A stretch of 64,000 bases of DNA, taken from NCBI RefSeq assembly GCF_034531395.1, contig NZ_JARVCO010000012.1, forward strand, positions 744,001 through 808,000. The letters are read 5' to 3'. Below the pieces are notes generated by a model that had not been told where the DNA came from, ran no database searches, and saw only the letters and a list, made by a program, of their open reading frames with translations. The translations under genes and the position numbers were made by a program. Of the stretch, positions 7,909-49,686 are shown piece by piece. Source of the DNA: Pontiella agarivorans. Lineage in GTDB: Bacteria; Verrucomicrobiota; Kiritimatiellia; Kiritimatiellales; Pontiellaceae. Within the stretch, counting starts at the first letter, position 1; each line of letters begins with the position of its first letter.

Positions 7909-7949
7909 GGTAACTCTCCTGTCGTTTAAAAATTCAATCGTGCTGATGG

Positions 7950-10992: not shown

Positions 10993-11074
10993 ACAGATCA
11001 CCTTTTTCTTGCGGTCTTGGATGAAGAAACAGGATGGCAGAGAGCGGCGGTTTAAGGCAAGCCTGCAAAAAGAA

Positions 11075-11099
11075 AGGGCACCCGGTATCCGGGTGCCCT
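11075..11099 (-). terminator. Rho-independent terminator of porin copy 1
   Basis: Near-perfect hairpin: AGGGCACCCGG and CCGGGTGCCCT around TAT, followed on the minus strand by TTCTTTTTGC. It lies 31 bases past the stop of the upstream porin and separates the two porin genes. Confidence 0.85.
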
Positions 11100-11129
11100 G
11101 AGGCAGGTTATTTGCGTGTTGCGGTTTAA

Positions 11130-12570: not shown

Positions 12571-12576
12571 AAAAAA

Positions 12577-12599
12577 AGGCCCCCGGTCCGGGAGCCTTT
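12577..12599 (-). terminator. Rho-independent terminator of the Na/Pi symporter gene
   Basis: GC-rich hairpin (AAAGGCCCCCGG against CCGGGAGCCTTT), followed on the minus strand by a run of seven T. It lies about 20 bases past the stop codon. Confidence 0.88.
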
Positions 12600-12619
12600 G
12601 CGTGCGGAGAATATCCGTA

Positions 12620-14404: not shown

Positions 14405-14509
14405 TTACAACACCCCTGTTTGAATAAAAATTGCGCGGAGAACCTACCACATGACTAATGAAAAGCTAATAAATAATACAGCGATTTGGGACGGGAAAAG
14501 CAGACGATT

Positions 14510-16288
14510 TCAGTGCTCTTTAGGAATCGGAAGGTCAATGGTGAAGGTGCTGCCGGAACCGAGTTTGCTTTCAACCCGGATGGTGCCGTCGTGTGCCTGC
14601 ACAATATGTTTCACGATGGAAAGGCCGAGCCCGGTTCCGCCCAGTTTACGGCTGCGGGCAGTGTCGACGCGGTAAAAACGTTCAAAGAGGCGTTCGAGGT
14701 GTTTGCGTTCAATCCCGAAACCTTCGTCTTTAACATAGATGCTGACAACGCTTTCCTTTTTTTCTGCCAGCACCAGCACTTTTTTGTTTTCTTCGGAATA
14801 CTTTACCGCATTGATGATCAGATTCACCAGTGCCTGCTCCAGCAGAGGAGCGTTGATTTCAAGTTCGAGGTCCTCCGGGCAGATACAGTCGATTTTTATC
14901 TGCTTTTTCCCGGCCTGCAGCTGGCAGAGATAGATTGCGGTTTCAATGACACTTTGAAGCTTTGCGGGCTCCGTCATCACATGGCCTTCTTTCTGCTCGA
15001 GGCGGGAGAGTGTGAGCAGGTCATCGATGATATTATTCAGACGCCCGGCCTGCTGACTGATAATTTCGAGGAAGCGGAGAATATTGGGTTCGTGGTTCCA
15101 GTCATCGGAAAGCAGCGTTTCCACAAAACCTTTAATCGAGGTGATCGGGGTTTTGAGTTCGTGCGATACATTGGCCACAAAGTCGGACCGCACCGTCTCG
15201 AGGTGACGCAGTTGAGTAACATCGCGCAGAACCACCAAAGCCCCGATGGCGGCGTTCTCGGCATCCCAGAGTACGGTTCCGCGGACCTGAATCTGTTTCT
15301 CCACATCACCGATCAGGGCCATATCCCGGCTGATTGCACGCTGTGAGCCCAGCAAAGCCTTAATGAATTCCTGAAGATTGGCATATCGGATCACCTGCTG
15401 AACAATTTCCCGTTTCACTTTATGATGATCCACGCCCAGAATTTCGCCGGCGACCCGGTTCATATGGATGATGCGTTCTTTTTTATCAATGGCCAGAACG
15501 CCTTCATCCATAGAGGATAATACCGCATTCTGTTCATTTCGCTGCTCGTTCAGTGTAGTGAGCGTTTTATCCAGCTGTTCCGACATGGTGTTGAGTGATT
15601 CCGCCAACTCATCGAGTTCAAGCGCCTGCTGGCGAGGCACGCGCTGGATGAAATCGCCAGCGGCAAAGCGCCGGGCGGCCTGGCCCATGCCGCGGAGCGG
15701 ATAGGTGATGCGGCGAACCATGATCACGCAGACCACCATGGCCAGAATACCGGCCAGAACCGAAACCACCAGAACACGAACGGTCATGGCATCCAGTTCT
15801 TTTTCGATATCGGTCATCGGGAGCGCCGCGCGTACGGCGCAGAGGGTTTCCTGATTTTCATTTTTCAGCGGAACGGCAATATACATCATGTCCTGCCTGA
15901 CCGTACGGCTGAAGCGGGTATCCATTCCGGGATCACCGGCCAGGGCCATGCGGATTTCCGGCCGGTCATCATGCGGTTCGATTTCCTGCACCTTTTTATT
16001 GGAATCGCCGACGACCTTCCCGTCGGGCAGCACAATCGTGAAACGGGTCTGTGAGGAAGAACCGACCGTTTTACAGAGGGCATCGATCTGAGCCGTTTCA
16101 TCCTGCAGATGAAAATCTTTAATCTGTTCGGAAAGCAAGGTGGCCCGGGTGAGAATATCTTTTTCCAGGGCCTGGAAATAAAGATTCTGCATGGAGTGGA
16201 AGGCATACAGGGCCACCACAAGAATGGCACCCGCTATCAATATCCAGTACGAGGGCAGCAGCAGCCAGAACAGATGTTTTTTTTTCAT
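14510..16288 (-). CDS. phoR: Phosphate regulon sensor kinase PhoR
   Basis: Membrane-bound sensor kinase. Domains in order: helix at about 7-28, a ~130-residue periplasmic domain, helix at about 170-193, HAMP to about 245, PAS about 255-350 (ERIIHMNRVAGEILG), HisKA with His376 in VANVSHELKTPITSIKG, and HATPase ending GGTGLGLSIVKHIVQAHDG. This corresponds to the long PhoR/PnpS type with an extracytoplasmic domain (592 residues). It follows phoB by 14 bases. Assignment rests on domain order plus linkage to phoB, a Na/Pi symporter, phosphate porins and pst. Confidence 0.88.
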   Translation of the reverse strand: MKKKHLFWLLLPSYWILIAGAILVVALYAFHSMQNLYFQALEKDILTRATLLSEQIKDFHLQDETAQIDALCKTVGSSSQTRFTIVLPDGKVVGDSNKKVQEIEPHDDRPEIRMALAGDPGMDTRFSRTVRQDMMYIAVPLKNENQETLCAVRAALPMTDIEKELDAMTVRVLVVSVLAGILAMVVCVIMVRRITYPLRGMGQAARRFAAGDFIQRVPRQQALELDELAESLNTMSEQLDKTLTTLNEQRNEQNAVLSSMDEGVLAIDKKERIIHMNRVAGEILGVDHHKVKREIVQQVIRYANLQEFIKALLGSQRAISRDMALIGDVEKQIQVRGTVLWDAENAAIGALVVLRDVTQLRHLETVRSDFVANVSHELKTPITSIKGFVETLLSDDWNHEPNILRFLEIISQQAGRLNNIIDDLLTLSRLEQKEGHVMTEPAKLQSVIETAIYLCQLQAGKKQIKIDCICPEDLELEINAPLLEQALVNLIINAVKYSEENKKVLVLAEKKESVVSIYVKDEGFGIERKHLERLFERFYRVDTARSRKLGGTGLGLSIVKHIVQAHDGTIRVESKLGSGSTFTIDLPIPKEH

Positions 16289-16302
16289 TACCGTTTTTCG
16301 GC

Positions 16303-17016
16303 CTATTCTTCTTCTTTGAAGCGGTATCCGATGCCGCGGACCGTTTCGATATATTTTCCGGCCGCAGCCAGCTTTTTGCGGAGGCCGACAATCTGGACAT
16401 CCACTGAGCGGTCTGTGACCGGATAATCTTCGCCGTGAACGGCATCCACAATCTGGTAACGTGTGAAAACACGACCGGGCTGCTGGGCCAGCAGCTGGAG
16501 CACTTTAAATTCGGTAAAGGTGAGGGTCACGTCCTTTCCATCGACCTCAACCTTATGGCGGCCGATATCCACCGTGATATTATGGATATTAATCAGCTCT
16601 TCATTGGCGGCCGGTTTTGAAGCCGATATGCGGCGCAGGGCGGCTTTCACCCGGGCCAGAAGGACACGCGGACTGAACGGTTTGGTGATATAGTCATCGG
16701 CACCCAGTTCAAGGCCGGTCACGATATCCGCTTCTTCACAGAGCGCGGTCAGCATAATAATCGGAATGCGCTCCGTCTTGGGATCGGCTTTGAGTTTTTT
16801 ACAGACTTCAAGGCCGTCGGCCCCCGGCAGCATGATATCCAGCAGGATCAGGTCGGGCTTGAACTGCTGGGCTGTGGTTAAACCTTCTTCTCCGGAATCC
16901 ACCACCTTCACGCGATATTTGCTGCGCTCCAGATTGAACTGTAAAAGTTCCTGAATCGGTGCTTCGTCCTCAACAACCAGAATTTTAATCTTTTCCATGG
17001 CGTCAATGTTTCGCAT
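16303..17016 (-). CDS. phoB: Phosphate regulon response regulator PhoB
   Basis: OmpR-family regulator for phosphate starvation. Receiver at the N-terminus with phosphorylation site in LILLDIMLPGADG, then a winged helix with FTEFKVLQLLAQQPGRVFTR and RSVDVQIVGLRKKL ending in ETVRGIGYRFKEEE, all typical of PhoB. Two starts are possible: 17016 or the internal ATG at 16998 (MEKIKILVVEDE), which gives the usual PhoB N-terminus; neither has a clear ribosome site. Upstream on the minus strand, CTAACA and TGTTAG are inverted about ten bases apart, possibly an autoregulatory site. Confidence 0.88.
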   Translation of the reverse strand: MRNIDAMEKIKILVVEDEAPIQELLQFNLERSKYRVKVVDSGEEGLTTAQQFKPDLILLDIMLPGADGLEVCKKLKADPKTERIPIIMLTALCEEADIVTGLELGADDYITKPFSPRVLLARVKAALRRISASKPAANEELINIHNITVDIGRHKVEVDGKDVTLTFTEFKVLQLLAQQPGRVFTRYQIVDAVHGEDYPVTDRSVDVQIVGLRKKLAAAGKYIETVRGIGYRFKEEE

Positions 17017-35811: not shown

Positions 35812-36320
35812 CGCAATCCTGAAGGTTACACCGTTGTGAAAAATGCCTGTGCAGGCGGGCGGGTTCAAGAGGAAACAGAGATGCAGATATCGAGGTCCTT
35901 CTGTCATGAGATCGTGGATAAAACGCTTCGGTGCATTTGTGCCGGAGCGTTTTTTTATTCCACTGTTCGGAAAAGCCGGGCGCCGATTTGTTTTCCAGGG
36001 GTTGAAAAACCGGGGATTTTAAAGGGGGTAAACAGAACGCTAACTCTTTTCTAGCGAACGGGCCATAAAGCGCCAACAGCATCCATAACATTCCCTAATG
36101 TTTTCCAAACATTGGAAAGGCCAAATCATCGGCGTTGAAGGGAGCAATTCAATTGGAACGGTTTTTAATCAACGAACCCTTTTCACTTTAACGCTTCAAT
36201 TGGATTGTCGAATACGGAAGGTAGAAAAGAAACGGCCTCCGGTTCTCCCCTTTAGCGCCATTTTATTTATCGCGGGTGACCGCATCGAATTAAATCAAAT
36301 GTTCATTAAAGGAGAAATTA
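35812..36320. other. Leader region of the TonB-system locus
   Basis: No gene is supported in 509 bases. It holds CGCTAACTCTTTTC with TAGCG (inverted, about 36038-36056), CATAACATTCCCTAATG near 36086, a perfect TTTCCAAACATTGGAAA at 36102-36118, and a strong AAAGGAGA ribosome site at about 36309. The TAACATT motif also occurs upstream of phoB and of the porin gene, which hints at shared control. Confidence 0.45.
36102..36118. repeat. TTTCCAAnnnTTGGAAA palindrome upstream of the TonB locus
   Basis: Perfect 7+3+7 palindrome, identical to the copy at 17435-17451 including the ACA centre, about 200 bases before the first gene of the locus. Confidence 0.8.
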
Positions 36321-38060
36321 ATGAAAAAGCAGTTTATTATTGCAGCAGCTATGGCTGCAGCGGGTATGGCCGGCGCGGCCGCTACCTATATTGATCAGGA
36401 CATCGAGACGTCCACCACCCTGTCGGCGCTGCCGGATGGAGATTACTACAGCCTGACGAACGTTGTTTACGTTATGCCGGGTGCTGCACTGACGCTCGAA
36501 GCCGGAGTGGTGTTTAAAAACTCGGGCGACGGCAGTCTGGGGGTCACCCGCGGTGCCCAGCTGTTTGTTGAAGGAACCAAATATGATCCGGTGATCTTCA
36601 CTTCGACCAACGATAATTTTTCCGCCTGGCAGGCGCAGTGCAACCAGTGGGGGTCTATTGCCATCTGCGGTAACGGCATGATCTCCGCTTCGCATTATAA
36701 AGGCTCCGCAATTATCGGTTCGGACAATGTGCAGAATACAAAAGATCCGGACGGCAACAGCGATAAAATCATGGAAGGCCTGAGTGCGGCCTATGTGGGG
36801 GATACCCGCCCGTATTACGGCGGTAACGATGATAACGATGACAGTGGTTCCATCAAATACCTGTCGATTCGTTACGGCGGTCAGCAGACTTCTCAGCCGG
36901 ATGTTGAGTTGAATGGTCTCTCCCTCGGCGGTGTCGGCGCAGCCACGGATATCGAATATGTGGAAGTCATGAACAACGTGGATGACGGCATCGAAATCTG
37001 GGGCGGTAAAGTGAATCTGAAACACGTGAATATCTGGAACGTGGGGGATGACAGCTTTGATATCGACCAGGGATGGCGCGGTAAGGCTCAGTTCGGTCTG
37101 ATTGTTCAGGGGCATTCCGGTGACTATGATCAGGGGTCCGGCGTTGGGGACAATATTTTCGAGCACGACGGTGCGGAAGATTCCGATGCCCAGCCGGTAA
37201 CGACAGGCGTGATCGCCAACTTCACAGCCATCGGGCAGGGTAACGGCAACGGTGAAGACGGTGACGGCGGAACGGCCTGGCGCGATGGAGCCCGTCTGCA
37301 GTATCGTAACTGCATCTTCATGGATGTTTCTGAACATGTGGTTCGTGCAGATGGCGATGACGGTGACGGTGCTCAGGGTTATGGCTACAACGGAACGCTG
37401 ACGTTTGATCAGGTTTTCTCTGAGTCGTATACCAACCTGCCTTCCAACAGCATCGGTATTGCGCCGTGGACCATCTATACCGCACAGGGCGAAGGTACGC
37501 TGGCCGGTTTTGAAAACTGTGTGTTCTACAACAACAATAACTACACCTGGTTTAACCTGCTGGGGCAGACCAATGCGGCACTCAATAACATTGTTGAGCC
37601 GGCGGCCATGCCGATTGCCTCAATTACCCGCGATACTACTGGGTTCACCAGCACACAAGGTAAAACCATCAGCCCGGTGCTGAGCCTTGATCCGTGCGCT
37701 GCGAACGATGCCGTGGATATGGGCGCTTCGGTTGCTGCGGATGGATTCTTCACGGAAGCCACCTATGCAGGCGGTTTCAGTGCAACGCATAACTGGTTGC
37801 TGGGATGGTCTGCTGCAGACCAGTTCGGCCTGATCGACAGCTCCAGCCATGGTGAAGGCGTGATGATCAACGATATGGTTCAGGGCGGTGTGGCTCTGAC
37901 CTTCGATACCGACGAAGGGGTTGAATACTTCGTGCAGAGCTCGGCTGATGCGGGTTTCTCTTCGGCTTCTGTTGAAGCCACGCTGATCGGTACCGGGGAG
38001 GAAATGGCCTGGGCGGATGCCGCTGCAGACCAGACTAAATTCTTCCGCGTAGTGAAGTAA
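36321..38060 (+). CDS. Secreted Asp/Gly-rich beta-helix-like protein
   Basis: Exported 579-residue protein leading the TonB locus; exact function unknown. Signal peptide MKKQFIIAAAMAAAGMAGA. The body has repeating beta-strand/turn segments rich in Asn, Asp and Gly (DIEYVEVMNNVDDGIEIWGG; NVGDDSFDIDQGWRGKAQF), as in right-handed parallel beta-helices, and resembles secreted proteins known mainly from Bacteroidetes. The last ~70 residues end in DQTKFFRVVK, a domain style common at the C-termini of secreted PVC proteins. AAAGGAGA lies before the ATG, so expression should be high, and a strong terminator follows. It may be a surface partner of the receptor or bind its substrate. Confidence 0.7.
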   Translation: MKKQFIIAAAMAAAGMAGAAATYIDQDIETSTTLSALPDGDYYSLTNVVYVMPGAALTLEAGVVFKNSGDGSLGVTRGAQLFVEGTKYDPVIFTSTNDNFSAWQAQCNQWGSIAICGNGMISASHYKGSAIIGSDNVQNTKDPDGNSDKIMEGLSAAYVGDTRPYYGGNDDNDDSGSIKYLSIRYGGQQTSQPDVELNGLSLGGVGAATDIEYVEVMNNVDDGIEIWGGKVNLKHVNIWNVGDDSFDIDQGWRGKAQFGLIVQGHSGDYDQGSGVGDNIFEHDGAEDSDAQPVTTGVIANFTAIGQGNGNGEDGDGGTAWRDGARLQYRNCIFMDVSEHVVRADGDDGDGAQGYGYNGTLTFDQVFSESYTNLPSNSIGIAPWTIYTAQGEGTLAGFENCVFYNNNNYTWFNLLGQTNAALNNIVEPAAMPIASITRDTTGFTSTQGKTISPVLSLDPCAANDAVDMGASVAADGFFTEATYAGGFSATHNWLLGWSAADQFGLIDSSSHGEGVMINDMVQGGVALTFDTDEGVEYFVQSSADAGFSSASVEATLIGTGEEMAWADAAADQTKFFRVVK

Positions 38061-38087
38061 GGCATCGCGATAGATGATCTGAATATG

Positions 38088-38121
38088 CTGGTGGCGGATT
38101 GCTCTGCCACCAGCCTTTTTT
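38088..38121 (+). terminator. Terminator between the secreted protein and the receptor operon
   Basis: GCTGGTGGC and GCCACCAGC form a perfect nine-base stem followed by TTTTTT, 27 bases past the stop codon. Read-through would allow a high ratio of the first product to the downstream proteins. Confidence 0.9.
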
Positions 38122-38136
38122 AAACGGATGTGTTAG

Positions 38137-39387
38137 GTGAGCAATATGATGCGGTTAGTGACAGGTTTGGTGCTTTCGACGGTTCTGGTGGCAGGAGCTG
38201 AAACATCTTCGAAAACTGCGGTTTCAATGGCGCCGTTTCAGGAACAGCTGTTGGAGCTGGCTTTTTCCGGAGTCTCCGAGATGCCGCTGCGTCCGCATAT
38301 TAAAAACCGGTCCCGGGCACAGCTGAAAACGGCACGGACCTGTTTGGAACTGAACAGCCCGGATAGGGCTGAACGCTTTGTGAATGATATTCAGAACTGG
38401 CAGCGCTGGATGGGCTATGCGGATATTGCCGCATATTATGCGGAGCTGGGGATGCAGGAGAAGGCGGAGGATTTTCTGGCGAAGGTTTATCCGGCGCTGG
38501 AAATGTCGGAAGATATTCGTTCCGGAAAAGTTGCCGCCAGCACAGAAAATCCTCTGATTGATACGCTGGTTGATCAGCGTTACCAGGCGGTGCTGACGCG
38601 TGTGGAGGAAGTCCGGCGTATGAGCCGTAAGACGGTTGGAACTGTCGCTCCGGAAGGGCGGTATGGTGAGGTGAATGCGGCCATTCTCAATGCGGAAGCC
38701 ATGGTGGAAAATGCCGCTGATACGGCGGAGGCGATTCAACGGCTCAAGCCCTTAACCACCCACAAAAATTTTGAAATTGCGTACTTCGGTTTTCATGCGC
38801 TGGTGCATGCGGTGGATCAGCATTATGACGCGGTGAATCTGAACCGGATTCTGAATGAGGAAATAAAGCCCGCTCTTACCAGGGTTCCGGTATTCATGAA
38901 AATTGATCTGTATCAGGAATTTGCTGCGATTGCGGTGAAACATAACGATATCGAATCTGTTCTCCCGATTCTTACGGAACTCGAATCGATGGTTGAAAGC
39001 CTGAAATCCGGTCCGCGTTATTATGTAACAGAAGCCGCCCGGGTTCTGCAACTGATGATAAAGGCCGGGCAGGATGAAAAAGCGTCGGAAGAGGTGGATC
39101 TGCTGCTGGCTTATTACCGGGAACACCGGGAGCTGATTGTGAATATGGAACGCGCTGCCCGGGTATGTGCTGTTGCTGAAGTATACGGGGCGCTGGGAAA
39201 AACCGATGTTGCGCTGGAGCTGTATGAAGAGGCGATTGCCGAGGGAACCTTTAATCCCAATTCAAGACCGCAGGCGGATGATTTAAACCGGATCTGCTGC
39301 TCTCTGGCATTGAACCATATTGAGCCGGGCAACCTGCTATGGGAGCGGCTGAATGAAATGCGGAATGACCTGGGAACGCCCTGGTAA
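38137..39387 (+). CDS. Exported helical-repeat protein of the TonB locus
   Basis: 416-residue protein, not recognised as a named family. A GTG start gives a signal peptide ending near AGA; a second in-frame ATG lies four codons on. The rest is almost wholly helical, with TPR-like pairs (GYADIAAYYAELGMQEKAEDFLAKVYPAL; ICAVAEVYG-type segments ending with LGKTDVALELYEEAI). It sits 76 bases after the secreted protein gene, across the terminator, and 17 bases before the receptor gene, so it probably works in the periplasm with the receptor or TonB. Confidence 0.72.
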   Translation: MSNMMRLVTGLVLSTVLVAGAETSSKTAVSMAPFQEQLLELAFSGVSEMPLRPHIKNRSRAQLKTARTCLELNSPDRAERFVNDIQNWQRWMGYADIAAYYAELGMQEKAEDFLAKVYPALEMSEDIRSGKVAASTENPLIDTLVDQRYQAVLTRVEEVRRMSRKTVGTVAPEGRYGEVNAAILNAEAMVENAADTAEAIQRLKPLTTHKNFEIAYFGFHALVHAVDQHYDAVNLNRILNEEIKPALTRVPVFMKIDLYQEFAAIAVKHNDIESVLPILTELESMVESLKSGPRYYVTEAARVLQLMIKAGQDEKASEEVDLLLAYYREHRELIVNMERAARVCAVAEVYGALGKTDVALELYEEAIAEGTFNPNSRPQADDLNRICCSLALNHIEPGNLLWERLNEMRNDLGTPW

Positions 39388-39404
39388 CGGATCCGCCGGT
39401 TTCG

Positions 39405-42400
39405 GTGGAACAGAATGTGTACGATTTTGGATGGTGTGAATTGAAAAACTGTTTACGACTTTTATTTGTTTTGTCTCTTTGTATCTGCGGAGCATCCGCT
39501 CAGCAGGGCGGTATTCGCGGTATGGTGATGGATGCCGATTTTGAAGTGCCGCTTCCCGGTGTTAAAGTGGTGATTTCGGAAACCGGCCAGGAGGCGGTGA
39601 CCGGTGATGCGGGAAGCTACTTCCTCGAACAGGTTGAGCCGGGGGCCTATACGCTGATGTTCAGCAAGGGCGGCTATACCCGTTTCACACAGCCGCAGGT
39701 GATTGTGTCGCCCGGAAAACTGGCGGAGATGGATGCGTCGCTGGCGGGCGAATATGAAGAGATGGATGAGCTTGTCGTAAAGGAGATCAGCCTGGGCGGT
39801 GCGTCAGAAATCGGCCTGCTGAATCTGCGTATGGAAAGCGTGGCGATGATGGATTCGGTCGGAGCGGATCTGATGAGCAAAGCCGGGGCTTCCGATGCTG
39901 CGCAGGCGCTGACCCTGGTTCCGGGTACGACGATTCAGGACGGAAAATATGCGGTGGTACGCGGGTTGCCGGATCGCTACGTCGCCTCGCTCATGAACAA
40001 CGTTCGCCTGCCGAGTGCGGACCCGGATAAACGCGCCGTTCAGCTCGATCAGTTTCCTTCGGCCATGATTGAAAGTATGCAGGTTTCCAAAACCTTTACG
40101 CCGGATCAGCAGGGCGATGCCTCCGGCGGTGCGGTGAATATTGTACTCAAAGGGATTCCGGATGAACGGGTGCTGCAGTTTAAAATCGGCACAAAATATA
40201 AAACCAACGTTGGCGATGCCGGCAGCGATTTTCCGGTCGATGATGCCATAGACATGGGCACGTGGGGGCATACAGCAGATGACATACAACCGCAGGATAT
40301 CAGCACGCCATGGTCCGGGGTTGTGGGGGTTGAACGCGGGGACAGCCGGCCCATGTATGACTGGTCGTTAACGGCCGGGGATAAGTTTGCGGTCGGTTCC
40401 GATCTGAAAGTCGGATTTGTCGGATCGCTTTTCTATAAGCGGGATGCTTCGTACAGCGAAGGGCGGAATGATAAATACTGGCTGGAGAATGACGGCGGAT
40501 TGCAGGATACGATGACGCCGCAATACAGCGGGGATAATCCCTATCTTACATTCGGCGGCACGTCTTATCTGAATCCCGGTTCGGAGCTGAGCACGTCACT
40601 GTATGATTTCCGGCAGGGGAGTGAAGAACTGCAGTGGGGGACCCTGGGAGGCATCGGTGCCGAGACGGAAAATAATGCGGTCAACCTGCTTTATTCCTAC
40701 AACTTCACCGGGGAGAGTACGGCCCGTCTGTCAGAAGATACGCGGGGAAAAACCTATTTTTTTCCGGGGTATGATCCCGATGACATCACATCGCCGGGCG
40801 GGGCGGATTCTGATTCAGCGCTTTTTGGCGGGAATCAGGATTTTTCCAGCTTTGCCGCATTTAATCGAAAAGAAGAACTGGACTACACCGAGCGGACTGC
40901 CGGAAGTCTGCAGCTGCGCGGAGATCACACTCTTCCGCTCGGCAGCCTGCGGATCGGTTCTGCTTTTACCTTTAATGAACCGGAGATTGACTGGACGGTT
41001 GCGTGGAGCGGATCAACAATGGATACCCCGGACCGTCGTTCGCTGGAAACCTATTGGCGGAGAGATGACGATGGAGACGGGATTCATCGCATGTATAATG
41101 ATGATGGCGGCCGTGCCCGTCTTATCCGCACTTGGCGCAGTGTTGATGAGGACAGTTTTCAGTATTTCGGAAATATCAACCTGCCGTTTGAAGCGTGGAA
41201 CGATGAAGAAGGATTTCTCAAATTCGGCGGCTTTGATGACTCGGTGGAACGTTCGTTTGATCAGAACAGTTTTTATACCACGCAGCAATTGAGTTCCCTG
41301 CAGGTACAGCCTTCCATGGCCTGGGAGGAGTTCTGGAGTTCCTACCTGAATGATGAGCGGATTGACATGAGCGATTATCCGTTCGACGTCAATTATGACG
41401 GTGCCCAGGATATTACCGCATTTTATCTGATGGGCGATTTACCCGTTGCTTCATTTTTGAAAATTACCGGGGGGGTCCGTTTTGAAAAAACGGAATTAAA
41501 TACCACCATGCGGGATGTTGATCCGAATGCGCAGTTATATATTCCGGCCAACAATTACGGTCCGCTTGATTTCGCGGGCAATGAAGATCAGGCAAATGCG
41601 GTAATTGATCAGAACGATGTGCTGCCTTCGATCGGGTTTGAATTTATTCCTCATGATAAAATTTCATTCCGGGGTTCGTATACCGAGACCATCGCCCGCA
41701 TGACTTTTAAGGAGCTGGTGCCGATTGAGCAGGTCGATACGCTGGGTGATGATCCGTTTATCGGCAATCCGGATCTGCAGATGAGCTCCATCCGGAACTA
41801 CGATTTGCGTTTTGATTATAATCCCTATCCGGGGGGGCTTGTTTCTGTTTCCTGGTTTTATAAGGAGCTGAAGGATGTCATTGATTATCGTCAGCAGATT
41901 CTGGGGGGAGCAACGCTGGCGACCACGCCGGACAATTATTCGGAAGGAACCATCAACGGCTATGAGCTTGAGATGCGCCAGTCATTAGGTGAATGGTGGG
42001 AACCGCTGGAGGGATTGGATTTGGGGGCCAACCTGACGCTGATCCAGTCTGAACTGGATGCTTCGGGTGCGGAGCTTGATGCGCTGGCCGGACTCCCCGA
42101 AATCATCGAGGCGGAATATGATGACGGCACGCGCGATATGATGGGCACCCCTGAATATCTGTATAATTTAAATGCCACCTATACGGTTCCGAAGTTCGGA
42201 ACAGAGCTCGGCCTGTTTTACATCTTTAAAGGTGATGCGCTGAAGGCTGCGGGAACACAGGATTCCAACCGGTATATTCCGAATATTTATGAAAAGGGTT
42301 ACGGGGTGCTTAACTTTTCCCTTTCGCAGAAACTGGGCAATCATTTCAAAGTCGGTTTCAAAGCAAAAAATCTGCTCAATCCGGAAATTCAGTCCGTCTA

Positions 42401-42488
42401 CCGCTCTGAATATGCCGGTGAGGATGTCATTCGGACCTCCTATAAAAAGGGCATCGAATACAGTGTGGGTGTGAGCACCACCTGGTAA
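39405..42488 (+). CDS. TonB-dependent outer-membrane receptor
   Basis: Large receptor, 1027 residues. After the signal peptide (LLFVLSLCICGASA) comes a carboxypeptidase-regulatory-like beta-sandwich (about 35-115, GIRGMVMDADFEVPLPGVKV), the plug (about 145-245, with YAVVRGLPDRYVASLMNNVRLPSADP and SGGAVNIVLKG), and a 22-strand barrel ending in GVSTTW. GTG 39405 is the longest start; a TTG at 39441 directly before the signal peptide (LKNCLRLL) may be the real one. The added N-terminal sandwich is common in SusC-like and other large-substrate receptors. No siderophore motifs; the linked TonB/ExbBD genes are probably its dedicated energisers. Confidence 0.92.
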   Translation: MEQNVYDFGWCELKNCLRLLFVLSLCICGASAQQGGIRGMVMDADFEVPLPGVKVVISETGQEAVTGDAGSYFLEQVEPGAYTLMFSKGGYTRFTQPQVIVSPGKLAEMDASLAGEYEEMDELVVKEISLGGASEIGLLNLRMESVAMMDSVGADLMSKAGASDAAQALTLVPGTTIQDGKYAVVRGLPDRYVASLMNNVRLPSADPDKRAVQLDQFPSAMIESMQVSKTFTPDQQGDASGGAVNIVLKGIPDERVLQFKIGTKYKTNVGDAGSDFPVDDAIDMGTWGHTADDIQPQDISTPWSGVVGVERGDSRPMYDWSLTAGDKFAVGSDLKVGFVGSLFYKRDASYSEGRNDKYWLENDGGLQDTMTPQYSGDNPYLTFGGTSYLNPGSELSTSLYDFRQGSEELQWGTLGGIGAETENNAVNLLYSYNFTGESTARLSEDTRGKTYFFPGYDPDDITSPGGADSDSALFGGNQDFSSFAAFNRKEELDYTERTAGSLQLRGDHTLPLGSLRIGSAFTFNEPEIDWTVAWSGSTMDTPDRRSLETYWRRDDDGDGIHRMYNDDGGRARLIRTWRSVDEDSFQYFGNINLPFEAWNDEEGFLKFGGFDDSVERSFDQNSFYTTQQLSSLQVQPSMAWEEFWSSYLNDERIDMSDYPFDVNYDGAQDITAFYLMGDLPVASFLKITGGVRFEKTELNTTMRDVDPNAQLYIPANNYGPLDFAGNEDQANAVIDQNDVLPSIGFEFIPHDKISFRGSYTETIARMTFKELVPIEQVDTLGDDPFIGNPDLQMSSIRNYDLRFDYNPYPGGLVSVSWFYKELKDVIDYRQQILGGATLATTPDNYSEGTINGYELEMRQSLGEWWEPLEGLDLGANLTLIQSELDASGAELDALAGLPEIIEAEYDDGTRDMMGTPEYLYNLNATYTVPKFGTELGLFYIFKGDALKAAGTQDSNRYIPNIYEKGYGVLNFSLSQKLGNHFKVGFKAKNLLNPEIQSVYRSEYAGEDVIRTSYKKGIEYSVGVSTTW

Positions 42489-42555
42489 CGACCTGCTAAC
42501 AATTCACTCACTGTTCAAAAACATTCTGACAATAGAACTCTAGCCCGAGGTAAAC

Positions 42556-43305
42556 ATGAAAAAACAACTGTTGATAATTTTAGCCGTTTCCGGCGCGGCC
42601 TTCGGGGCACAGGCGCAGGAACTGGATGAGACGAAAGAGGCGCTCTCGAAGTGGGTTGAAACCCGCAAGCTGATCTCGGAAGAGAAGCAGAAATGGGAGC
42701 TGGAACGTGAAATTCTGGGCGACCGGATTGATCTGGTCCGTAACGAGCGCGATACCCTGAATACCAAAATCCACGAGACACAGTCGCTGATTACCGACGC
42801 CGACAAAAAACGTGAGGATTTGGTTAAAGAAAAAGACGCGCTGAAAAATGCATCGGCGACACTCGTTAACCGAATCTTCACGCTGGAGCGCGAAGTGCTG
42901 AACCTGTTGCCGTCGCTGCCGGAGCCGGTTCAGGAGCGAATCAAATCGCTGAGTCAGCGGATTCCGAAAACAGAAGAGACGGAGCTCTCGTTGTCGGAGC
43001 GCTATCAGAACCTCATCGGAATCATCAACGAGCTCAACAAAGGAGCCGGTGAAATTACCGTGGTGAGCGAAGTGAAAAAACTTTCCGATGGCTCCAGCGC
43101 TGAAGTGCAGACGATGTATATCGGCTATGCGGCCGGCTATTCCTGCAACAACAACGGCGATGTTGCCTTCATCGGAACCCCGACTTCCGAAGGCTGGAAA
43201 TGGGAGCAGGATAATTCCATCGCCCGGACCGTTGCCGACTCCATCTCCATTTTGAAAAACGAAAAGGTCGCGGCCTTTATGCCGTTGCCCGTAAGCGTCG
43301 ATTAA
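42556..43305 (+). CDS. DUF3450 periplasmic coiled-coil protein
   Basis: 249-residue exported protein with signal peptide (MKKQLLIILAVSGAAFGAQA) and a long coiled coil at about 25-115, followed by a small globular part (EVQTMYIGYAAGYSCNNNGDVAFIG). DUF3450 genes stand next to TtpC-type exbB genes in gamma- and alphaproteobacterial TonB2 operons, as here. Its role is not established; association with the periplasmic part of the energising complex is likely. CCGAGG lies before the ATG. Confidence 0.85.
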   Translation: MKKQLLIILAVSGAAFGAQAQELDETKEALSKWVETRKLISEEKQKWELEREILGDRIDLVRNERDTLNTKIHETQSLITDADKKREDLVKEKDALKNASATLVNRIFTLEREVLNLLPSLPEPVQERIKSLSQRIPKTEETELSLSERYQNLIGIINELNKGAGEITVVSEVKKLSDGSSAEVQTMYIGYAAGYSCNNNGDVAFIGTPTSEGWKWEQDNSIARTVADSISILKNEKVAAFMPLPVSVD

Positions 43306-43315
43306 GGATTATACG

Positions 43316-44749
43316 ATGAAAAAATCAGGATTTAACTGCACGCCGCGCCGCAACTGTTTTCTTTCTGCTGTTGCGCTGCTGGTACTCACCGCACTGGGGG
43401 CGTCCGCTCAGAATGCCGTCCCTATGCAGGAAAAGCTGGAAGCCAGTCTGCAGGAGCTTTCCAATGTCCGGAACGCAATCGCCAGGGAAAAACTTCCGAT
43501 GGTGAAGGGGCTCAATGCACTGGAAGATGAGGTGATGGAGGTGCGCCTTGAACATCAGAAAATCATGCGTCAGCTCGACAGCCGCAATCTTGATCTGAAT
43601 AACCTGCGTTCCGATATTAAAAGCCGCAAGGGCGAAAAAAACTACATCTCCAATCTGCTGGTTGAATACACCCGGAACTTTGAAACCCGGCTGCACATTG
43701 CCGAGCTGGATTTATATGAAAATCTGGTAAAGGCCGCTTCGCTGGCGCCGGAAAACAGCAACCTTTCCGACCAGGAGATTTTTGTTAAACAGACTGAACT
43801 GGTGGAAACGTCCATTCAGCGTCTGCAGGAGATTGTCGGCGGCAGTGCATTCGCCGGAACCTCTGCCGGCGAGGACGGTCTTGTGAAACAGGGCAATTTC
43901 CTGCTGATCGGACCGGTGGCGCTTTTTGCATCGGAAGACGGTTCGCTGGCGGGGATTGCCGAACAGCGCCTCGGTTCGCTGGAGCCGACCGTTCTGCCGT
44001 TTGCCGATCCGCTGAATACGGAAATGGTGAAGCGTACAGTGGCGGAAAAGAAAGGTATCTTTCCGTTTGATCCAAGCCTTGGAAACGCCCGGAAAATCGA
44101 GGAAACCCGAGAGACCTTCAAAGAGCATCTGGCGAAGGGTGGAAAAGTGGGCTATGTGATTGTCGGCATGTTTGTGCTCTGTGTCGCGATTTCGATTTTC
44201 AAAGTCATTCAGCTGCTGCTGGTGCCGAAAGTGTCTGAATCGAGGGCGATGCCCGTGCTGAAAGCAATCCTGGTGAACGACCATAAAAAAGCTGCTGCCG
44301 AAATTGGCAAACTCAGGGGGCCGACAGCCGTCATGCTGACGTCCGGCATCGAGCATATCACCGAACCGAAGGAACTCGTTGAAGAGGTGATGTATGAAGA
44401 GATGCTGACGACGCGGATGCGTGTGAATAAATTTACACCGGTCCTGGCGGTCTGCGCGTCCACCGCACCGCTGATGGGGCTGCTCGGTACGGTTACGGGT
44501 ATCATCAACACCTTTAAAATGATCACGGTATTCGGGTCCGGCGATGTGAAAACGCTTTCCGGCGGGATTTCCGAAGCCCTGGTGACGACCGAAATGGGGC
44601 TGGTTGTGGCGATCAGTGCGCTGGTGATGTATGCCTTTCTTTCGCGTATGGCCAAAAAGATTACCGACCAGATGGAACAGGTGGCCATTCTCTTCATCAA
44701 CCGTTCGGTCCGTGCGGCCGGAGAAGCTGAAGAAGCGACGGCGGCGTAA
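43316..44749 (+). CDS. TtpC-like long MotA/TolQ/ExbB protein
   Basis: 477-residue member of the MotA/TolQ/ExbB proton-channel family with an extra N-terminal periplasmic domain, as in Vibrio TtpC. It has a signal peptide to ASA, a coiled-coil region (about 35-125), a membrane helix near 278-300 (VGYVIVGMFVLCVAISIF), and the canonical channel part with LAVCASTAPLMGLLGTVTGIINTF and SGGISEALVTTEMGLVVAI. It starts ten bases after the DUF3450 gene. It should link the ExbB-ExbD motor to periplasmic partners. Confidence 0.88.
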   Translation: MKKSGFNCTPRRNCFLSAVALLVLTALGASAQNAVPMQEKLEASLQELSNVRNAIAREKLPMVKGLNALEDEVMEVRLEHQKIMRQLDSRNLDLNNLRSDIKSRKGEKNYISNLLVEYTRNFETRLHIAELDLYENLVKAASLAPENSNLSDQEIFVKQTELVETSIQRLQEIVGGSAFAGTSAGEDGLVKQGNFLLIGPVALFASEDGSLAGIAEQRLGSLEPTVLPFADPLNTEMVKRTVAEKKGIFPFDPSLGNARKIEETRETFKEHLAKGGKVGYVIVGMFVLCVAISIFKVIQLLLVPKVSESRAMPVLKAILVNDHKKAAAEIGKLRGPTAVMLTSGIEHITEPKELVEEVMYEEMLTTRMRVNKFTPVLAVCASTAPLMGLLGTVTGIINTFKMITVFGSGDVKTLSGGISEALVTTEMGLVVAISALVMYAFLSRMAKKITDQMEQVAILFINRSVRAAGEAEEATAA

Positions 44750-44763
44750 GCGGAATCTGATCC

Positions 44764-45390
44764 ATGGACTTAAGCTTACAGGAATTCTGGAAACAAACGC
44801 TGACGATCTGGGGATCGGGCGGCTGGGCGATGTATGCACTGGCCGCCGATGCCTTCATCATTTTCTACATGGGCTTCAGCATCTTTTCGCGCATTCGGGC
44901 GAAGGGCTATCTTTATGTCTCTGAAAAAAAGATGAAGCGCTGGATCAAGGCTCCGGAAAAAGGGCGCGGTCCGGTCGGAAAAATGATCCGGTTTGTGATG
45001 GGGGCGCGTGACCTCGACGAGATCGGTATTTTCTTTGATGAGCTGAACCAGACCGAGATTGCACCGGTCAACCGGGATCTTAAAGTGATGCAGACCTGCG
45101 TGAGTATTGCGCCGCTGATGGGCCTGCTTGGTACCGTGACCGGTATGCTCTCGACCTTTGCGGCACTGGCCGGCGGATCGGGCGGCGATAAAACCATGGG
45201 CATGGTGGCCGGCGGGATTTCTGAAGCCCTGATCACCACGGAAACCGGTCTGCTGATTGCGCTGCCCGGTCTGATTTTTCAGTACAAGCTGGCCCGCGAG
45301 CATGCGCAGTACAAAGCCTTTCTGGCCCACTTGCAGACGGTGTGTTCCCAGCGAATTTATAAAGAGACCCTGAAAAAGGATGCCGCGTAG
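44764..45390 (+). CDS. ExbB-like proton-channel subunit
   Basis: Compact MotA/TolQ/ExbB protein, 208 residues, three membrane helices (about 15-40, 115-140 and 155-180) with SIAPLMGLLGTVTGMLSTF and GGISEALITTETGLLIALPGL, the conserved motifs of the channel. It follows the long paralogue by 14 bases. Having two ExbB-type proteins in one operon is characteristic of TonB2-type systems. Confidence 0.93.
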   Translation: MDLSLQEFWKQTLTIWGSGGWAMYALAADAFIIFYMGFSIFSRIRAKGYLYVSEKKMKRWIKAPEKGRGPVGKMIRFVMGARDLDEIGIFFDELNQTEIAPVNRDLKVMQTCVSIAPLMGLLGTVTGMLSTFAALAGGSGGDKTMGMVAGGISEALITTETGLLIALPGLIFQYKLAREHAQYKAFLAHLQTVCSQRIYKETLKKDAA

Positions 45391-45423
45391 CCCTTACGCA
45401 ATACGAATTACGGAGTATGTCAA

Positions 45424-45834
45424 ATGGGACGTTTCAGCAACAGCAGCGAAGATAATACAGAAGTGGCGGTGGATATTTCGCCACTGATCGACTGCGTATT
45501 TATTCTTCTGATTTTCTTTATCGTGACCACCACCTTTGTGGAGGAGACCGGCGTGGAAGTCGATAAACCGCAGGCGGCGTCGTCGGTTCAGCTGGAAAAA
45601 ACCAGCATCATGATCGCCATCACCCAGAACGGGGAAGTTGTTTATGGCGGCAACGAAATCGGTATTTCCGGTATCCGTCCTTTAGTGAAGCGCATGATGC
45701 AGAAGGAAGAGGTGCCGGTCATCATTCAGGCCGACCAGAACGTGATGTCCGGTCTGCTGGTCCGGGTGATCGACGAGGCCAAGCTGGCCGGTGCCGTCAA
45801 AGTGAGTATTTCCACCCTTAAGAACCAGGGATAG
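45424..45834 (+). CDS. ExbD-like subunit
   Basis: 136-residue ExbD/TolR protein: a short cytoplasmic N-terminus, one membrane helix carrying the essential Asp (VDISPLIDCVFILLIFFIVTTTF, Asp near residue 23) and a periplasmic domain ending in AKLAGAVKVSISTLKNQG. It is placed between exbB and tonB as expected. Confidence 0.94.
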   Translation: MGRFSNSSEDNTEVAVDISPLIDCVFILLIFFIVTTTFVEETGVEVDKPQAASSVQLEKTSIMIAITQNGEVVYGGNEIGISGIRPLVKRMMQKEEVPVIIQADQNVMSGLLVRVIDEAKLAGAVKVSISTLKNQG

Positions 45835-45840
45835 GACAAC

Positions 45841-46497
45841 GTGGAACCGTTCGCTAAATTTTTAAAACAGTTGGCGCAGCAATCGGCAAATGTCGCAATG
45901 GGCGGAGCCCTGACCTTTTCCTTTTTTATGCTGCTTCCGATTCTTCAGGTCATCACGCAGCCGCCGGCCAAAGATTTAACCATCCGCACGGTCGATGTGG
46001 CCAACGTGCCGCCTCCGCCGCCGCCCCCGATGGAAGAGGAGGAACCGCCTGAACCGGAGCCGGAAGAACCGCCGCCCCCGGCGGTCGATGCTGCTCCGCT
46101 GGATCTCTCGCAGCTTGAACTGGCTTTGAACCCCGGTGACGGCGGATTCGGCGGCGGCGACTTTTCCGTCAACATCGGTGCCGTGGCCGGTAACGGTGAT
46201 GAAGTCGATGCGATTTTTTCGCTCTCCGATCTCGATCAGAAACCGCGCGTGGTGTATCAGCCGGCCCCGATTTATCCGCCCGAGCTGGCGCGTAAAGGCA
46301 TGCAGGGCACCGTTTATGTTTTATTTCTTGTCGACAGGAATGGTCGAACCAAAGACCTGAAAGTTCAGAAGTCGACGCATCCGGCCTTCAATAATCCGGC
46401 CCTGAAGGCGGTCAAGCAGTGGAAATTTGAGCCGGGTAAACGCAAGGGCAAACCCGTCCAGTTCCGGATGCGAGTGCCGATCACCTTCCAAAAGTAG
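45841..46497 (+). CDS. TonB energy-transducing protein
   Basis: 218-residue TonB: membrane anchor near 18-38 (MGGALTFSFFMLLPILQVI), a proline/glutamate-rich spacer (PPPPPPPMEEEEPPEPEP), a glycine-rich linker and a C-terminal domain with YPPELARKGMQGTVYVLFLVDRNGRTKDLKVQKSTHPAFNNPALKAVKQWKFEPG, the classic TonB fold. The start is a GTG six bases after the exbD stop. The spacer is short and acidic rather than the EP/KP type of E. coli. Confidence 0.94.
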   Translation: MEPFAKFLKQLAQQSANVAMGGALTFSFFMLLPILQVITQPPAKDLTIRTVDVANVPPPPPPPMEEEEPPEPEPEEPPPPAVDAAPLDLSQLELALNPGDGGFGGGDFSVNIGAVAGNGDEVDAIFSLSDLDQKPRVVYQPAPIYPPELARKGMQGTVYVLFLVDRNGRTKDLKVQKSTHPAFNNPALKAVKQWKFEPGKRKGKPVQFRMRVPITFQK

Positions 46498-46506
46498 GAT
46501 AACGTC

Positions 46507-47961
46507 ATGATGAATATGTCCAGAAATTATAAAACCGCCGGCATCACCGCGCTGATGCTTTGCGCCGGCGTCGCCGGCGCCGATGAAATGCAGGATCTGA
46601 TCAATGCACTGCCGGATATGACCGGTATCCGTAAGCCGCCTTCAGCCATGGTCAACACAAAGCCGAAAAAGGTTCAGGACCTGTCGATCTGGGATGAAGA
46701 AATGTTCCAGAAACAGTTTATGGCCAGCTATGGCGTGAATACCGAAATTGAACCGAAGCTGACGGCCGTGGAATACGAACAGATGCAGAAAATTCTGGAT
46801 GCCATGTCGGCCGAGGATGATACGCAAAAAGCGGAAAAGCTCCTGTTGAAAAACTGCAAAGACTCCTCTTCGGCAACCTTTGAGTTCACGTTGGCGAATA
46901 TCTATTTTCAACAGGATAAGCTCGATGAAGCGCTGAAGTACTATGATGAGGCCATTGCGCAGTTTCCGAATTTCCGTCGGGCGTATAAAAATGCGGGTTT
47001 GATTCATGTGCGCAACGGGGATTTTAAAAAGGCGCTGCCGTATCTGACCAAAACGATTGAGCTGGGGGGACACACATCCATTGCCTACGGGCTGCTGGGT
47101 TTCGCCTATGGCTCCACTGATCATCATCTCTGCGCGGAATCGGCCTATCGTCAGGCGATTCTGCTCGATCCGGAAACCATTGATTGGCAGCTGGGGCTGG
47201 CCCGCAGTTTCTTTAAGCAGCAGAAGTTCGGTGATGCGGTGAGTCTCTGCAATACGCTGATCCGGAAAAAGCCGGACAACGCCGATTTCTGGCTGCTGCA
47301 GGCGAATGCCTATCTCGGGCTGAAACAGCCGATGCGGGCCGCGGAAAATTATGAATATGTTAATGCCATGGGTAAATCGACCCCGGAAAGTATGACCATG
47401 CTTGGCGATATTTATGTGAATGAAGAGCGTTGGGATCTGGCGGCCGATGCTTATCTGCGCGCTTACGAACTGAATGATGGCGCGGAGCCGGAAAAGGCCC
47501 TGCGTGCGGCAAAAATTCTGGCGGCCCGGGGATCGCTGGAACAGTCGGTTCGAATGCTGAGCCGGGTGGCGGAACGGAAGTCATCGCTGGATAAGGAAAA
47601 TCTCAAGGAGCTGTTGAAGCTGCAGGCCCGCGTGGCCGTGGCCGAGGGGGGCGGTGACGATGTGGTGGCCATTCTGGAGGAGGTGGTGGAAGTTGATCCG
47701 CTGGACGGCGAGGCCCTTATTCTGCTGGCTCAGCACTACGGCCGCAACGTGCCTGAAAAAGCGATCTTTTATTATGAGCGTGCCGCAGGGATTGAAAAAT
47801 TTGAAGCCGAAGCCAGGCTGTACCATGGGCAGCTGCTGGTGGGTCAGGCTAAATATGCCGATGCCATCCCGCTGCTGCGTCGCGCCTATGAGCTCAAGCC
47901 GCGTTCCGATATTGAAGATTATCTGAAACAGGTAGAGCGCATTGCGAAAACACGAAGTTAA
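46507..47961 (+). CDS. TPR protein of the TonB system
   Basis: 484-residue exported tetratricopeptide-repeat protein. A signal peptide ends at GVAGA; TPR units run from about 120 to the end (EFTLANIYFQQDKLDEALKYYDEAIAQFPNF; AYKNAGLIHVRNGDFKKALPYLTKTIELG). A TPR gene closes TonB2-type operons in Shewanella and Vibrio relatives, and is thought to help assemble or stabilise the complex. It begins nine bases after tonB. Confidence 0.86.
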   Translation: MMNMSRNYKTAGITALMLCAGVAGADEMQDLINALPDMTGIRKPPSAMVNTKPKKVQDLSIWDEEMFQKQFMASYGVNTEIEPKLTAVEYEQMQKILDAMSAEDDTQKAEKLLLKNCKDSSSATFEFTLANIYFQQDKLDEALKYYDEAIAQFPNFRRAYKNAGLIHVRNGDFKKALPYLTKTIELGGHTSIAYGLLGFAYGSTDHHLCAESAYRQAILLDPETIDWQLGLARSFFKQQKFGDAVSLCNTLIRKKPDNADFWLLQANAYLGLKQPMRAAENYEYVNAMGKSTPESMTMLGDIYVNEERWDLAADAYLRAYELNDGAEPEKALRAAKILAARGSLEQSVRMLSRVAERKSSLDKENLKELLKLQARVAVAEGGGDDVVAILEEVVEVDPLDGEALILLAQHYGRNVPEKAIFYYERAAGIEKFEAEARLYHGQLLVGQAKYADAIPLLRRAYELKPRSDIEDYLKQVERIAKTRS

Positions 47962-47970: not shown

Positions 47971-49686
47971 ATGGATCTGTTTTTAATCGACGGTATTGCG
48001 CCGTTTTTCAGGGGCTTCGACCAGGAGGTGATCAACTGGTCGAAAGCCCCTTTTGCTCATCTCGAAAAAGGCGATGGACTGAATGTGAAGCGGCTGGAGC
48101 AGATTCGGTGTGATTTTCGTACCTTCTGTGAAAAAGCGGCGGATGCAGGCTACAATGCCATCACGCTGGATGATCTGGCGCATCTGTGTATTTTTGATTT
48201 TTATGAACCGGAACTGATACATAAGCTGTTTGAATATCGCCTTTTTTTCAGCGAGCTGTTCGAAATTGCCGATGAAAACGGGCTCACGCCGTACATCACA
48301 ACCGATCTGCTGTTTTATAACCGCGCGATTGAAAAACATATCGGAACCAAAGACGAGGATGTGCGACGTTTTGCCGCCGACGCCTGCCGTCAGCTCTTTA
48401 CCGATTTTCCAGGTATTGGCGGATTGATCGTCCGTATCGGTGAGGCGGACGGGCTGGATGTGGAGGGCGATTTTCACAGTCGACTGGTGCTGAAGACTCC
48501 GTTGCAGGCCCGCCGGATGATTGAGGCACTGATTCCGGTTTTTGAGGAATTTGACCGCCTGCTGATTTTCCGCACCTGGAGTGTGGGCGTTGGGAAAGTG
48601 GGGGACATTATCTGGAATCCGGATACCTTTGATGCGGTTTTCCAGGGATTGGAACATGAGCATTTTATTATTTCCATGAAATACGGGCCGTCCGATTTTT
48701 TTCGTTATCTTCCGTTGAGCCGGCTTTTCTTTCGGGGCGGGCACCGGAAGTTGGTGGAGTTTCAGGCGCGGCGGGAATATGAGGGCTTCGGCGAATACCC
48801 GTCGTTCATCGGTTGGGACTACGAAAACATTCGGGATAAACTGATCGGCCAGAACATGGCCGGGATTTCGGTATGGAGCCAGACCGGCGGATGGAGCGGT
48901 TTCCGCCGCCTGACCTATCTGGATGACAACGCGGTCTGGAATGAAATCAACGCCTTTGTCACGGTGCGGCTTTTCCGGGATCAGACACGGACCACGGATC
49001 AGGTGATTCAGGAATACTACCGTCGGAATTACCCCGATCCGCATTGGCGGCCGCTGCAGGAACTGCTCAAACTTTCTGACGAAGTCATTAAGGAGCTGCT
49101 CTATACCGAAGATTTCGCATCGCGGAATATTTATTTCCGCCGGCTGCGGGTTCCGCCGCTGGTGAATGTGTATTGGCGACATATTGTGGCGAACCATTTT
49201 ATGCGTAAATTTATGCGCTGTTATGTCAGCGACGGACGGCGTGCCGTGAAGCAGGGCTTCGGTGCATTGAAAAAAATCAAACGGATGAAGGAGCTCGCGC
49301 TGCGGTTGGGGCTTCCGGCAGAGGATCTTCAGTTTCAGTACGATACGTTCAGTATCATTGCCGCGGTCCGGGAATATTATTTTCTCGATTTCACCGATGA
49401 GCTGGTGGAGCGGCTGCAGAAAATGAAAGCCGAATATGAAATGAAATATGAGGAACCGCGATATGTCCTCATGCTGGATACTTCAAAATTCAAACTGCGG
49501 CGTGCGCACCTGCATCTGATGCTGAAAACAATGTTCCGCGGCGAGCACGGCTATCGCCTGTTTGACCGAATCGTGATGCTGAATGTTCTTTCGGTCATGT
49601 ATCCTTTGCTGAAGCGTTTCAGCAGAAAGGCGGTGCCGGAATTCGCTTCCGAATCCGCTATGGGAATCGATTCGATCTTTAAATGA
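47971..49686 (+). CDS. TIM-barrel, glycoside-hydrolase-like protein
   Basis: Cytoplasmic 571-residue protein with no signal peptide, not firmly identified. The first ~330 residues look like a (beta/alpha)8 barrel: GYNAITLDDLAHL, GIGGLIVRIGEADGLDVEGDFHSR, LLIFRTWSVGVGKVGDIIW, FIISMKYGPSDFFRY, and SFIGWDYENIRDKLIGQNMAGISVWSQTGGW. Acidic residues at strand ends (ITLDD, RIGEAD) suit a retaining hydrolase, and there is a general likeness to alpha-glucuronidase-type barrels. A helical C-terminal region follows. It starts nine bases after the TPR gene and may share its transcript; it ends one base from the opposing dGTPase gene. Confidence 0.55.
   Translation: MDLFLIDGIAPFFRGFDQEVINWSKAPFAHLEKGDGLNVKRLEQIRCDFRTFCEKAADAGYNAITLDDLAHLCIFDFYEPELIHKLFEYRLFFSELFEIADENGLTPYITTDLLFYNRAIEKHIGTKDEDVRRFAADACRQLFTDFPGIGGLIVRIGEADGLDVEGDFHSRLVLKTPLQARRMIEALIPVFEEFDRLLIFRTWSVGVGKVGDIIWNPDTFDAVFQGLEHEHFIISMKYGPSDFFRYLPLSRLFFRGGHRKLVEFQARREYEGFGEYPSFIGWDYENIRDKLIGQNMAGISVWSQTGGWSGFRRLTYLDDNAVWNEINAFVTVRLFRDQTRTTDQVIQEYYRRNYPDPHWRPLQELLKLSDEVIKELLYTEDFASRNIYFRRLRVPPLVNVYWRHIVANHFMRKFMRCYVSDGRRAVKQGFGALKKIKRMKELALRLGLPAEDLQFQYDTFSIIAAVREYYFLDFTDELVERLQKMKAEYEMKYEEPRYVLMLDTSKFKLRRAHLHLMLKTMFRGEHGYRLFDRIVMLNVLSVMYPLLKRFSRKAVPEFASESAMGIDSIFK

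Follow-up and report, generated by a model that had tools for sequence, protein, structure and literature searches.

Extracellular proteins that are made in phosphate starvation and encoded beside an outer-membrane receptor have been described in Caulobacter and Flavobacterium. In Caulobacter crescentus, ElpS (CC0170) is an extracellular protein produced specifically in phosphate starvation, and its gene lies beside the TonB-dependent receptor (TBDR) gene cc0171 (PMC2996285). A study of Flavobacterium (PMC8115612) describes the proteins FI and FII as relatives of one another and of ElpS. FI, encoded beside a TBDR, accounts for 18.7% of the low-phosphate exoproteome, and FII, which bears IPR011050, is encoded with its TBDR within the phoBR operon; the authors frame both proteins as possible binders of plant-wall molecules. 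Here we analyse a nine-gene operon on the plus strand of the Pontiella agarivorans genome, at positions 36321-47961 of a 64,000-nucleotide stretch of contig NZ_JARVCO010000012.1 (the window, to which all positions refer). Its first gene and its receptor probably belong with the ElpS-CC0171 and FI/FII-TBDR pairs, and we put the probability that the operon encodes a PhoB-controlled outer-membrane phosphorus-acquisition system at roughly 0.7. The initial annotation regarded the operon as the best candidate for an undescribed system. This was too broad, as such pairs are partly known; what is new is that the module includes gene 2 and an energiser of its own, and that a structured leader RNA precedes it. 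The Pho box and the neighbouring genes indicate phosphorus; the box had been missed, as had the leader.

Nine consecutive genes had been predicted, and all of the open reading frames (ORFs) were recovered with the same boundaries. Gene 1 (36321-38060) codes for a secreted, ElpS-like right-handed beta-helix protein and belongs to no Pfam or NCBIfam family. Gene 2 (38137-39387) codes for an exported TPR-like alpha-solenoid, as judged from an AlphaFold2 model and alignment; it has no curated family and gives only weak, sub-threshold TPR matches in Pfam and NCBIfam. The domains of genes 3-9 were assigned with the same two databases. Gene 3 (39405-42488; the start codon is uncertain, GTG 39405 or TTG 39441) encodes a TBDR with an N-terminal CarboxypepD_reg domain followed by the Plug and barrel. 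It is followed by genes for TtpB (DUF3450; gene 4, 42556-43305, PF11932 at 102 bits), a TtpC-type MotA_ExbB protein with a DUF3450-like N-terminus (gene 5, 43316-44749, PF01618 and a weak PF11932 match), ExbB (gene 6, 44764-45390, PF01618), ExbD (gene 7, 45424-45834, PF02472), TonB (gene 8, 45841-46497, PF03544 of the TonB_C type, with TIGR01352 above cut-off) and a protein matching TPR models (gene 9, 46507-47961), which occupies the TtpD position of the Vibrio TonB2/3 operons (PMC6957404). The strong ribosome site and separate terminator previously ascribed to gene 1 are both present, namely, a perfect Shine-Dalgarno sequence AAAGGAG at 36308 and an intrinsic terminator with a 12-bp stem and a T6 tail between genes 1 and 2 (38087-38121). 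A hairpin with a T-run is similarly placed 3' of gene 1 in most of the relatives examined. The proposal that gene 1 is overproduced as a surface partner is plausible.

The energiser had been likened to the TonB2 layout of Vibrio. It is indeed complete, while the gene order is closer to that of V. vulnificus TonB3, in which a receptor gene likewise comes first, followed by TtpB, TtpC, ExbB, ExbD, TonB and TtpD (PMC6957404); the same succession, with a TPR protein in the last position, is found in the window. V. vulnificus TonB2 cannot function without its DUF3450 (TtpB2) and TPR (TtpD2) proteins (PMC6957404). Unlike what is predicted for the operon studied here, the Vibrio TonB2 system is under Fur/iron control, and no beta-helix gene or gene 2 has been described for it (PMC6957404). 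Conversely, the available parts of the ElpS-CC0171 and FI/FII accounts describe no dedicated TonB energiser in the locus, no gene 2 and no leader RNA (PMC2996285, PMC8115612).

The promoter of gene 1 contains a strongly predicted Pho box (36092-36113, plus strand), an 11-bp direct repeat TCCCTAATGTTTTCCAAACATT. For scoring, a matrix was built from pstS and phoB promoters alone, with gene 1 promoters left out; the box scores 23.7 and ranks second among 352 upstream regions, of which the 95th percentile is 9.6. The twelve highest-scoring regions are all promoters of phoB, pstS, pstC, oprP2 or gene 1, from the window or its relatives. The pattern used in the searches was the local repeat CTAAY-N6-CTAAC, in place of the CTGTCAT type of E. 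coli. In degenerate form it matches seven times in the window against 0.67 expected, and five of the other six matches lie upstream of pstC, pstS (two, one per strand), oprP2 and phoB. A stricter form, drawn so as to admit the gene 1 site, has one exact match genome-wide, which is at gene 1. The Pho box is kept in ten gene 1 promoters of the same genus, and these observations suggest that PhoB may bind here and induce the operon at low phosphate.

The Pho box bears directly on whether the operon could be a TonB2/TonB3-type iron or haem system, with the gene 1 protein as a helper delivering haem to the receptor. In Vibrio, the TonB2 energiser acts in iron uptake (PMC6957404), and HxuA, the surface partner of a TBDR, helps haem to reach its receptor HxuC (PMC4873976). 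However, the whole window contains no Fur-box match within three mismatches, and no iron gene was recognised among the recurrent flanking clusters, so that an iron function appears highly improbable. The receptor is also not of a known siderophore or cobalamin type, a finding that the initial annotation had named as one that would refute it; its best model, TIGR01782, scores below cut-off. The iron and cobalamin readings were rejected on these grounds, together with a glycan reading discussed below.

A Pho cluster with a few unrelated genes in between occupies positions 23-17016 of the minus strand of the window, as identified with NCBIfam and Pfam. It encodes PstC (23-1168), PstS (1407-2225), two Porin_O_P proteins (9835-11001 and 11130-12275), a Na/Pi symporter (12620-14404), a PhoR/PnpS-type kinase (14510-16288) and a PhoB-like regulator (16303-17016). 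The link recurs elsewhere. Clusters of genes flanking the module in other genomes comprise PstS, PstC/A, PstB, PhoU, PiT, polyphosphate kinase, Porin_O_P and PhoB/PhoR-like proteins, the representatives of which were confirmed with NCBIfam and Pfam, except for PiT. Core phosphate genes were found at 27 of 120 module loci and in none of 40 random 20-kb windows (Fisher p 0.0002), a ratio that is only indicative because module loci served to seed the profiles and only ten genomes, all of the window's phylum, supplied the random windows. PhoB-like regulators taken alone show no significant enrichment (27 of 120 module loci against 5 of 40 random windows, p 0.13); those adjoining the module in relatives have TIGR02154 PhoB as their best NCBIfam model, below cut-off. 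A Latescibacterota copy of the module has PstC, PstB, PhoU and Ppk1 alongside and a Verrucomicrobiota copy has PstS, all above cut-off. Gene 1 and a PstC/PstA-type permease gene share a contig in 15 genomes, and in 10 of these the two are no more than 40 kb apart. On plasmid pBGP9 of Alteromonas macleodii the order is phoB-phoR-pstS-(2OG-Fe oxygenase)-gene1-TBDR-DUF3450-TtpC-ExbB-ExbD-TonB-TPR; the 2OG-Fe(II) oxygenase gene (7377-8168 of locus L186) thus stands between pstS and the gene 1 relative.

Regulation by low phosphate is by itself no proof of transport, and in Caulobacter no effect on phosphate uptake was detected (PMC2996285). The operon might accordingly be a TonB-energised surface or signalling apparatus of phosphate starvation, serving adhesion or the sensing of algal or mineral phosphate without importing phosphorus. 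We give this very little credence, as a dedicated energiser of six genes would be costly for a sensor and the recurrent neighbours encode transporters and polyphosphate kinase.

Gene 1 is a single-copy gene in the P. agarivorans genome. Homologues occur in 21 of 58 close relatives and, across the phylum, in 49 of the 289 genomes sampled, and named contigs carrying them are assigned to Planctomycetota, Omnitrophota, Bacteroidota, Gemmatimonadota, Latescibacterota, Ignavibacteria, Chitinivibrionales, Delongbacteria and Verrucomicrobia. The initial annotation proposed genes 1 and 2 as partners of the receptor, and the gene-neighbourhood search that it suggested upholds the pairing: gene 1 homologues do not lie mostly away from TonB receptors, and at 93 of the 99 loci that could be assessed they adjoin one of the same subfamily, in phyla ranging from Planctomycetota to Bacteroidota. 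The receptor gene is located 3' of gene 1 in 57 of these 93 loci, 5' in 33, and on the opposite strand in the remainder; four of the six unpaired loci have the module in a different order or end at a contig edge. In the window itself, gene 2 alone separates gene 1 from the TBDR gene. Retention of adjacency despite changes of order argues that gene 1 and the receptor form a functional pair. A profile of the receptor subfamily scores 412-565 bits with paired proteobacterial receptors, and 16 bits or no match with the other TBDRs of this genome in the stretches available, indicating on sequence grounds that the gene-1-paired receptors are a distinct subfamily. All nine genes were found again in the same order in related genomes, and the arrangement is therefore not due to chance. 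The full module is present in the window's class and in Planctomycetota, and gene 2 is restricted to loci that have it. A small MORN-repeat protein also recurs beside the gene 1/receptor pair, mostly in Bacteroidota (L137, L142, L143, L155, L162, L164, L172, L173).

The nearly constant neighbourhood of gene 1 and receptor would also be expected if the receptor and energiser exported the gene 1 protein across the outer membrane, that is, if this were TonB-driven secretion of a phosphate-starvation exoprotein. There is a precedent in Myxococcus, where the TBDR Oar is functionally tied to a single extracellular protein, the protease PopC, and is required for its secretion, although with no link to phosphate (PMC6434023). 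In addition, ElpS reaches the surface independently of the type II secretion system (T2SS) by an unknown route, and is also released with T2SS help (PMC2996285). Sorting tails of the type IX secretion system (T9SS) are present on at least 6 of 38 gene 1 homologues; these represent a separate exit, and the Bacteroidota homologues are nonetheless paired with receptors. Secretion by the receptor therefore seems unlikely. The T9SS tails do support a surface or extracellular location of the gene 1 proteins.

The signal peptide of the P. agarivorans gene 1 protein is plain. Its N-terminus, MKKQFIIAAAMAAAGMAGAAATY, contains no cysteine and no lipobox, in contrast to the LAGC of ElpS, so that the protein may work like ElpS without being an ElpS-type lipoprotein. 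Alphaproteobacterial copies have the order gene1-TBDR-T2SS, which is that of elpS-cc0171-gsp. ElpS is a lipoprotein released with the help of the T2SS (PMC2996285); unlike this, the P. agarivorans gene 1 adjoins no T2SS genes and is accompanied by the dedicated TtpBC-ExbBD-TonB-TPR energiser and gene 2. The PUSIII and PUSIV loci of Flavobacterium johnsoniae resemble the operon in encoding, beside TBDRs, pectin-lyase-fold surface lipoproteins (IPR011050 in FII) that are very abundant and strongly induced by phosphate depletion; they differ in that no energiser genes or gene 2 are described in the sections available (PMC8115612).

The AlphaFold2 model of gene 1 (pLDDT 81) is a right-handed beta-helix. 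Among solved structures it comes closest to pectate lyase, phage tailspikes, polygalacturonase, mannuronan epimerases and pectin methylesterase, although every one of these matches has a low TM-score and an E value above 0.001; a sequence search of the PDB found no match, and the gene 1 profile found one weak match only. The residues invariant in the homologue alignment are strikingly acidic (D221, D222, E225, D243, D244, D247, D249, E281 and D283), pointing to a possible metal site or active groove. Long relatives of gene 1, of 1000-1580 aa, also occur (L077, L080, L086, L186, L187), and those of Verrucomicrobiota have two or three beta-helix domains per protein. The model of gene 2 (pLDDT 81) is a TPR solenoid that matches TPR folds, and a lipobox is found in many gene 2 homologues in the alignment.

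The pectate-lyase-like fold of gene 1 and the TIGR01782 match of the receptor could be read as signs of SusCD-like glycan uptake, in which the beta-helix protein would bind or cleave a polysaccharide and the receptor import it for carbon. SusCD and PusCD do combine a TBDR with a surface partner, and PusCD is induced by phosphate starvation (PMC8115612). That partner, however, is SusD-like, whereas gene 1 is an unrelated beta-helix and neither gene 1 nor gene 2 has a SusD match in Pfam or NCBIfam. Moreover, no SusD, carbohydrate-active enzyme or sulfatase was recognised among the recurrent flanking clusters inspected, the recurrent neighbours being phosphate genes, and the gene 1 promoter carries the Pho box. 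Glycan import is thus very unlikely.

Phosphorus acquisition, the favoured function, may proceed as follows. When phosphate is scarce, PhoB would bind the box at 36092-36113 and drive a transcript with a structured leader. The gene 1 protein, probably overproduced owing to its strong ribosome site and the terminator behind the gene, would be exported and, once at the cell surface, would use its acidic beta-helix face, which probably binds metal, to capture or process a compound that contains phosphorus. The gene 3 receptor could then import the compound, or the phosphate released from it, into the periplasm, powered by the operon's own TtpB-TtpC-ExbB-ExbD-TonB-TPR complex. The gene 2 protein might be a periplasmic TPR scaffold linking the receptor with the energiser, and Pst and Na/Pi carriers would take over from the periplasm.

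Several points weigh against this scheme. The gene 1 promoter was among the sequences in which the repeat was first spotted, though it was kept out of the matrix, and family-f2 relatives (L051, L052, L059) have neither this Pho box nor the leader. Many copies of the module have no phosphate gene within 9 kb. As its invariant residues are acidic, the gene 1 protein could bind phosphate only via a metal or within a larger molecule. Homology to ElpS and FI/FII is presumed from synteny and from the kinship reported between FI/FII and ElpS. Finally, in Caulobacter a cc0171 deletion had no effect on ElpS production, and no change in intracellular phosphate was seen on a shift to poor medium (PMC2996285). 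The scheme nevertheless provides a testable function, outer-membrane phosphorus acquisition with its own energiser in many lineages, for a beta-helix family of at least nine phyla for which there is no Pfam or NCBIfam model. If it is correct, TonB-driven phosphorus uptake, so far suggested only in Caulobacter and Flavobacterium, would be widespread in Planctomycetota, Verrucomicrobiota and marine Proteobacteria.

A structured leader RNA (36130-36246, plus strand), conserved among genomes of the same genus, is located 3' of the Pho box. It consists of hairpins P1 and P2 and possibly a pseudoknot, P0. Both sides have changed in 9 of the 27 pairs of P1 and P2, and the covariation score is 0.363, compared with 0.227 +/- 0.021 in shuffled and at most 0.135 in slid alignments; single-sequence folding energies of the leader are unexceptional. 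P0 is 92% paired and is kept as tentative because its covariation is no higher than that of shuffles. Between the leader and the Shine-Dalgarno sequence, sequence and alignment reveal a small hairpin, GCGG-GTGA-CCGC (36272-36283, plus strand), which is kept in most relatives. Sequestration of the ribosome site by sequence 3' of P2 was considered and rejected, as the pairing is no better than shuffled in most members.

In a search of 58 relatives, a covariance model of the leader (R1) matched at this operon only, bar one weak match at E 0.1, and two leader copies outside its training set scored 94 and 110 bits. Rfam 15 gave no credible match to the leader, the sole match touching it scoring 13 bits against a gathering score of 58.6. 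In genome G019 (contig C72, L245 9300-9990), the leader and the opening codons of gene 1 run straight into the C-terminal part of gene 10, and the intervening operon is gone; this apparent deletion scar, which might be an assembly error, ties the leader to the operon. In locus L057 the Pho box and leader are duplicated about 900 bp apart (2945-3066 and 3834-3955), the first copy preceding a 34-codon hydrophobic ORF. A second leader copy in genome G014 is probably the same site, since it lies at a contig end and the contig with gene 1 begins inside a leader.

According to a 2022 review, no riboswitch with extensive evidence for regulating Pho-system genes is known (PMC9971707), and the structured leader, presumably under Pho control, offers a concrete candidate for this niche. 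It is nevertheless doubtful that the leader is a ligand-responsive, riboswitch-like cis-regulatory RNA that would add another level of control, by RNA, to a phosphorus-scavenging operon driven by PhoB. The element occurs in a single genus and at a single operon, and a ligand-free structure that stabilises the mRNA or causes attenuation is just as conceivable.

Gene 10 (47971-49686, 571 aa), which follows the operon, has a weak match to the GH67 middle domain alone and is kept after or near the operon in several relatives. The same genome contains two additional DUF3450/TtpC-type TonB clusters and two more receptors (G000 contig C7, approximately 208-228 kb; L002, L003, L090, L092).

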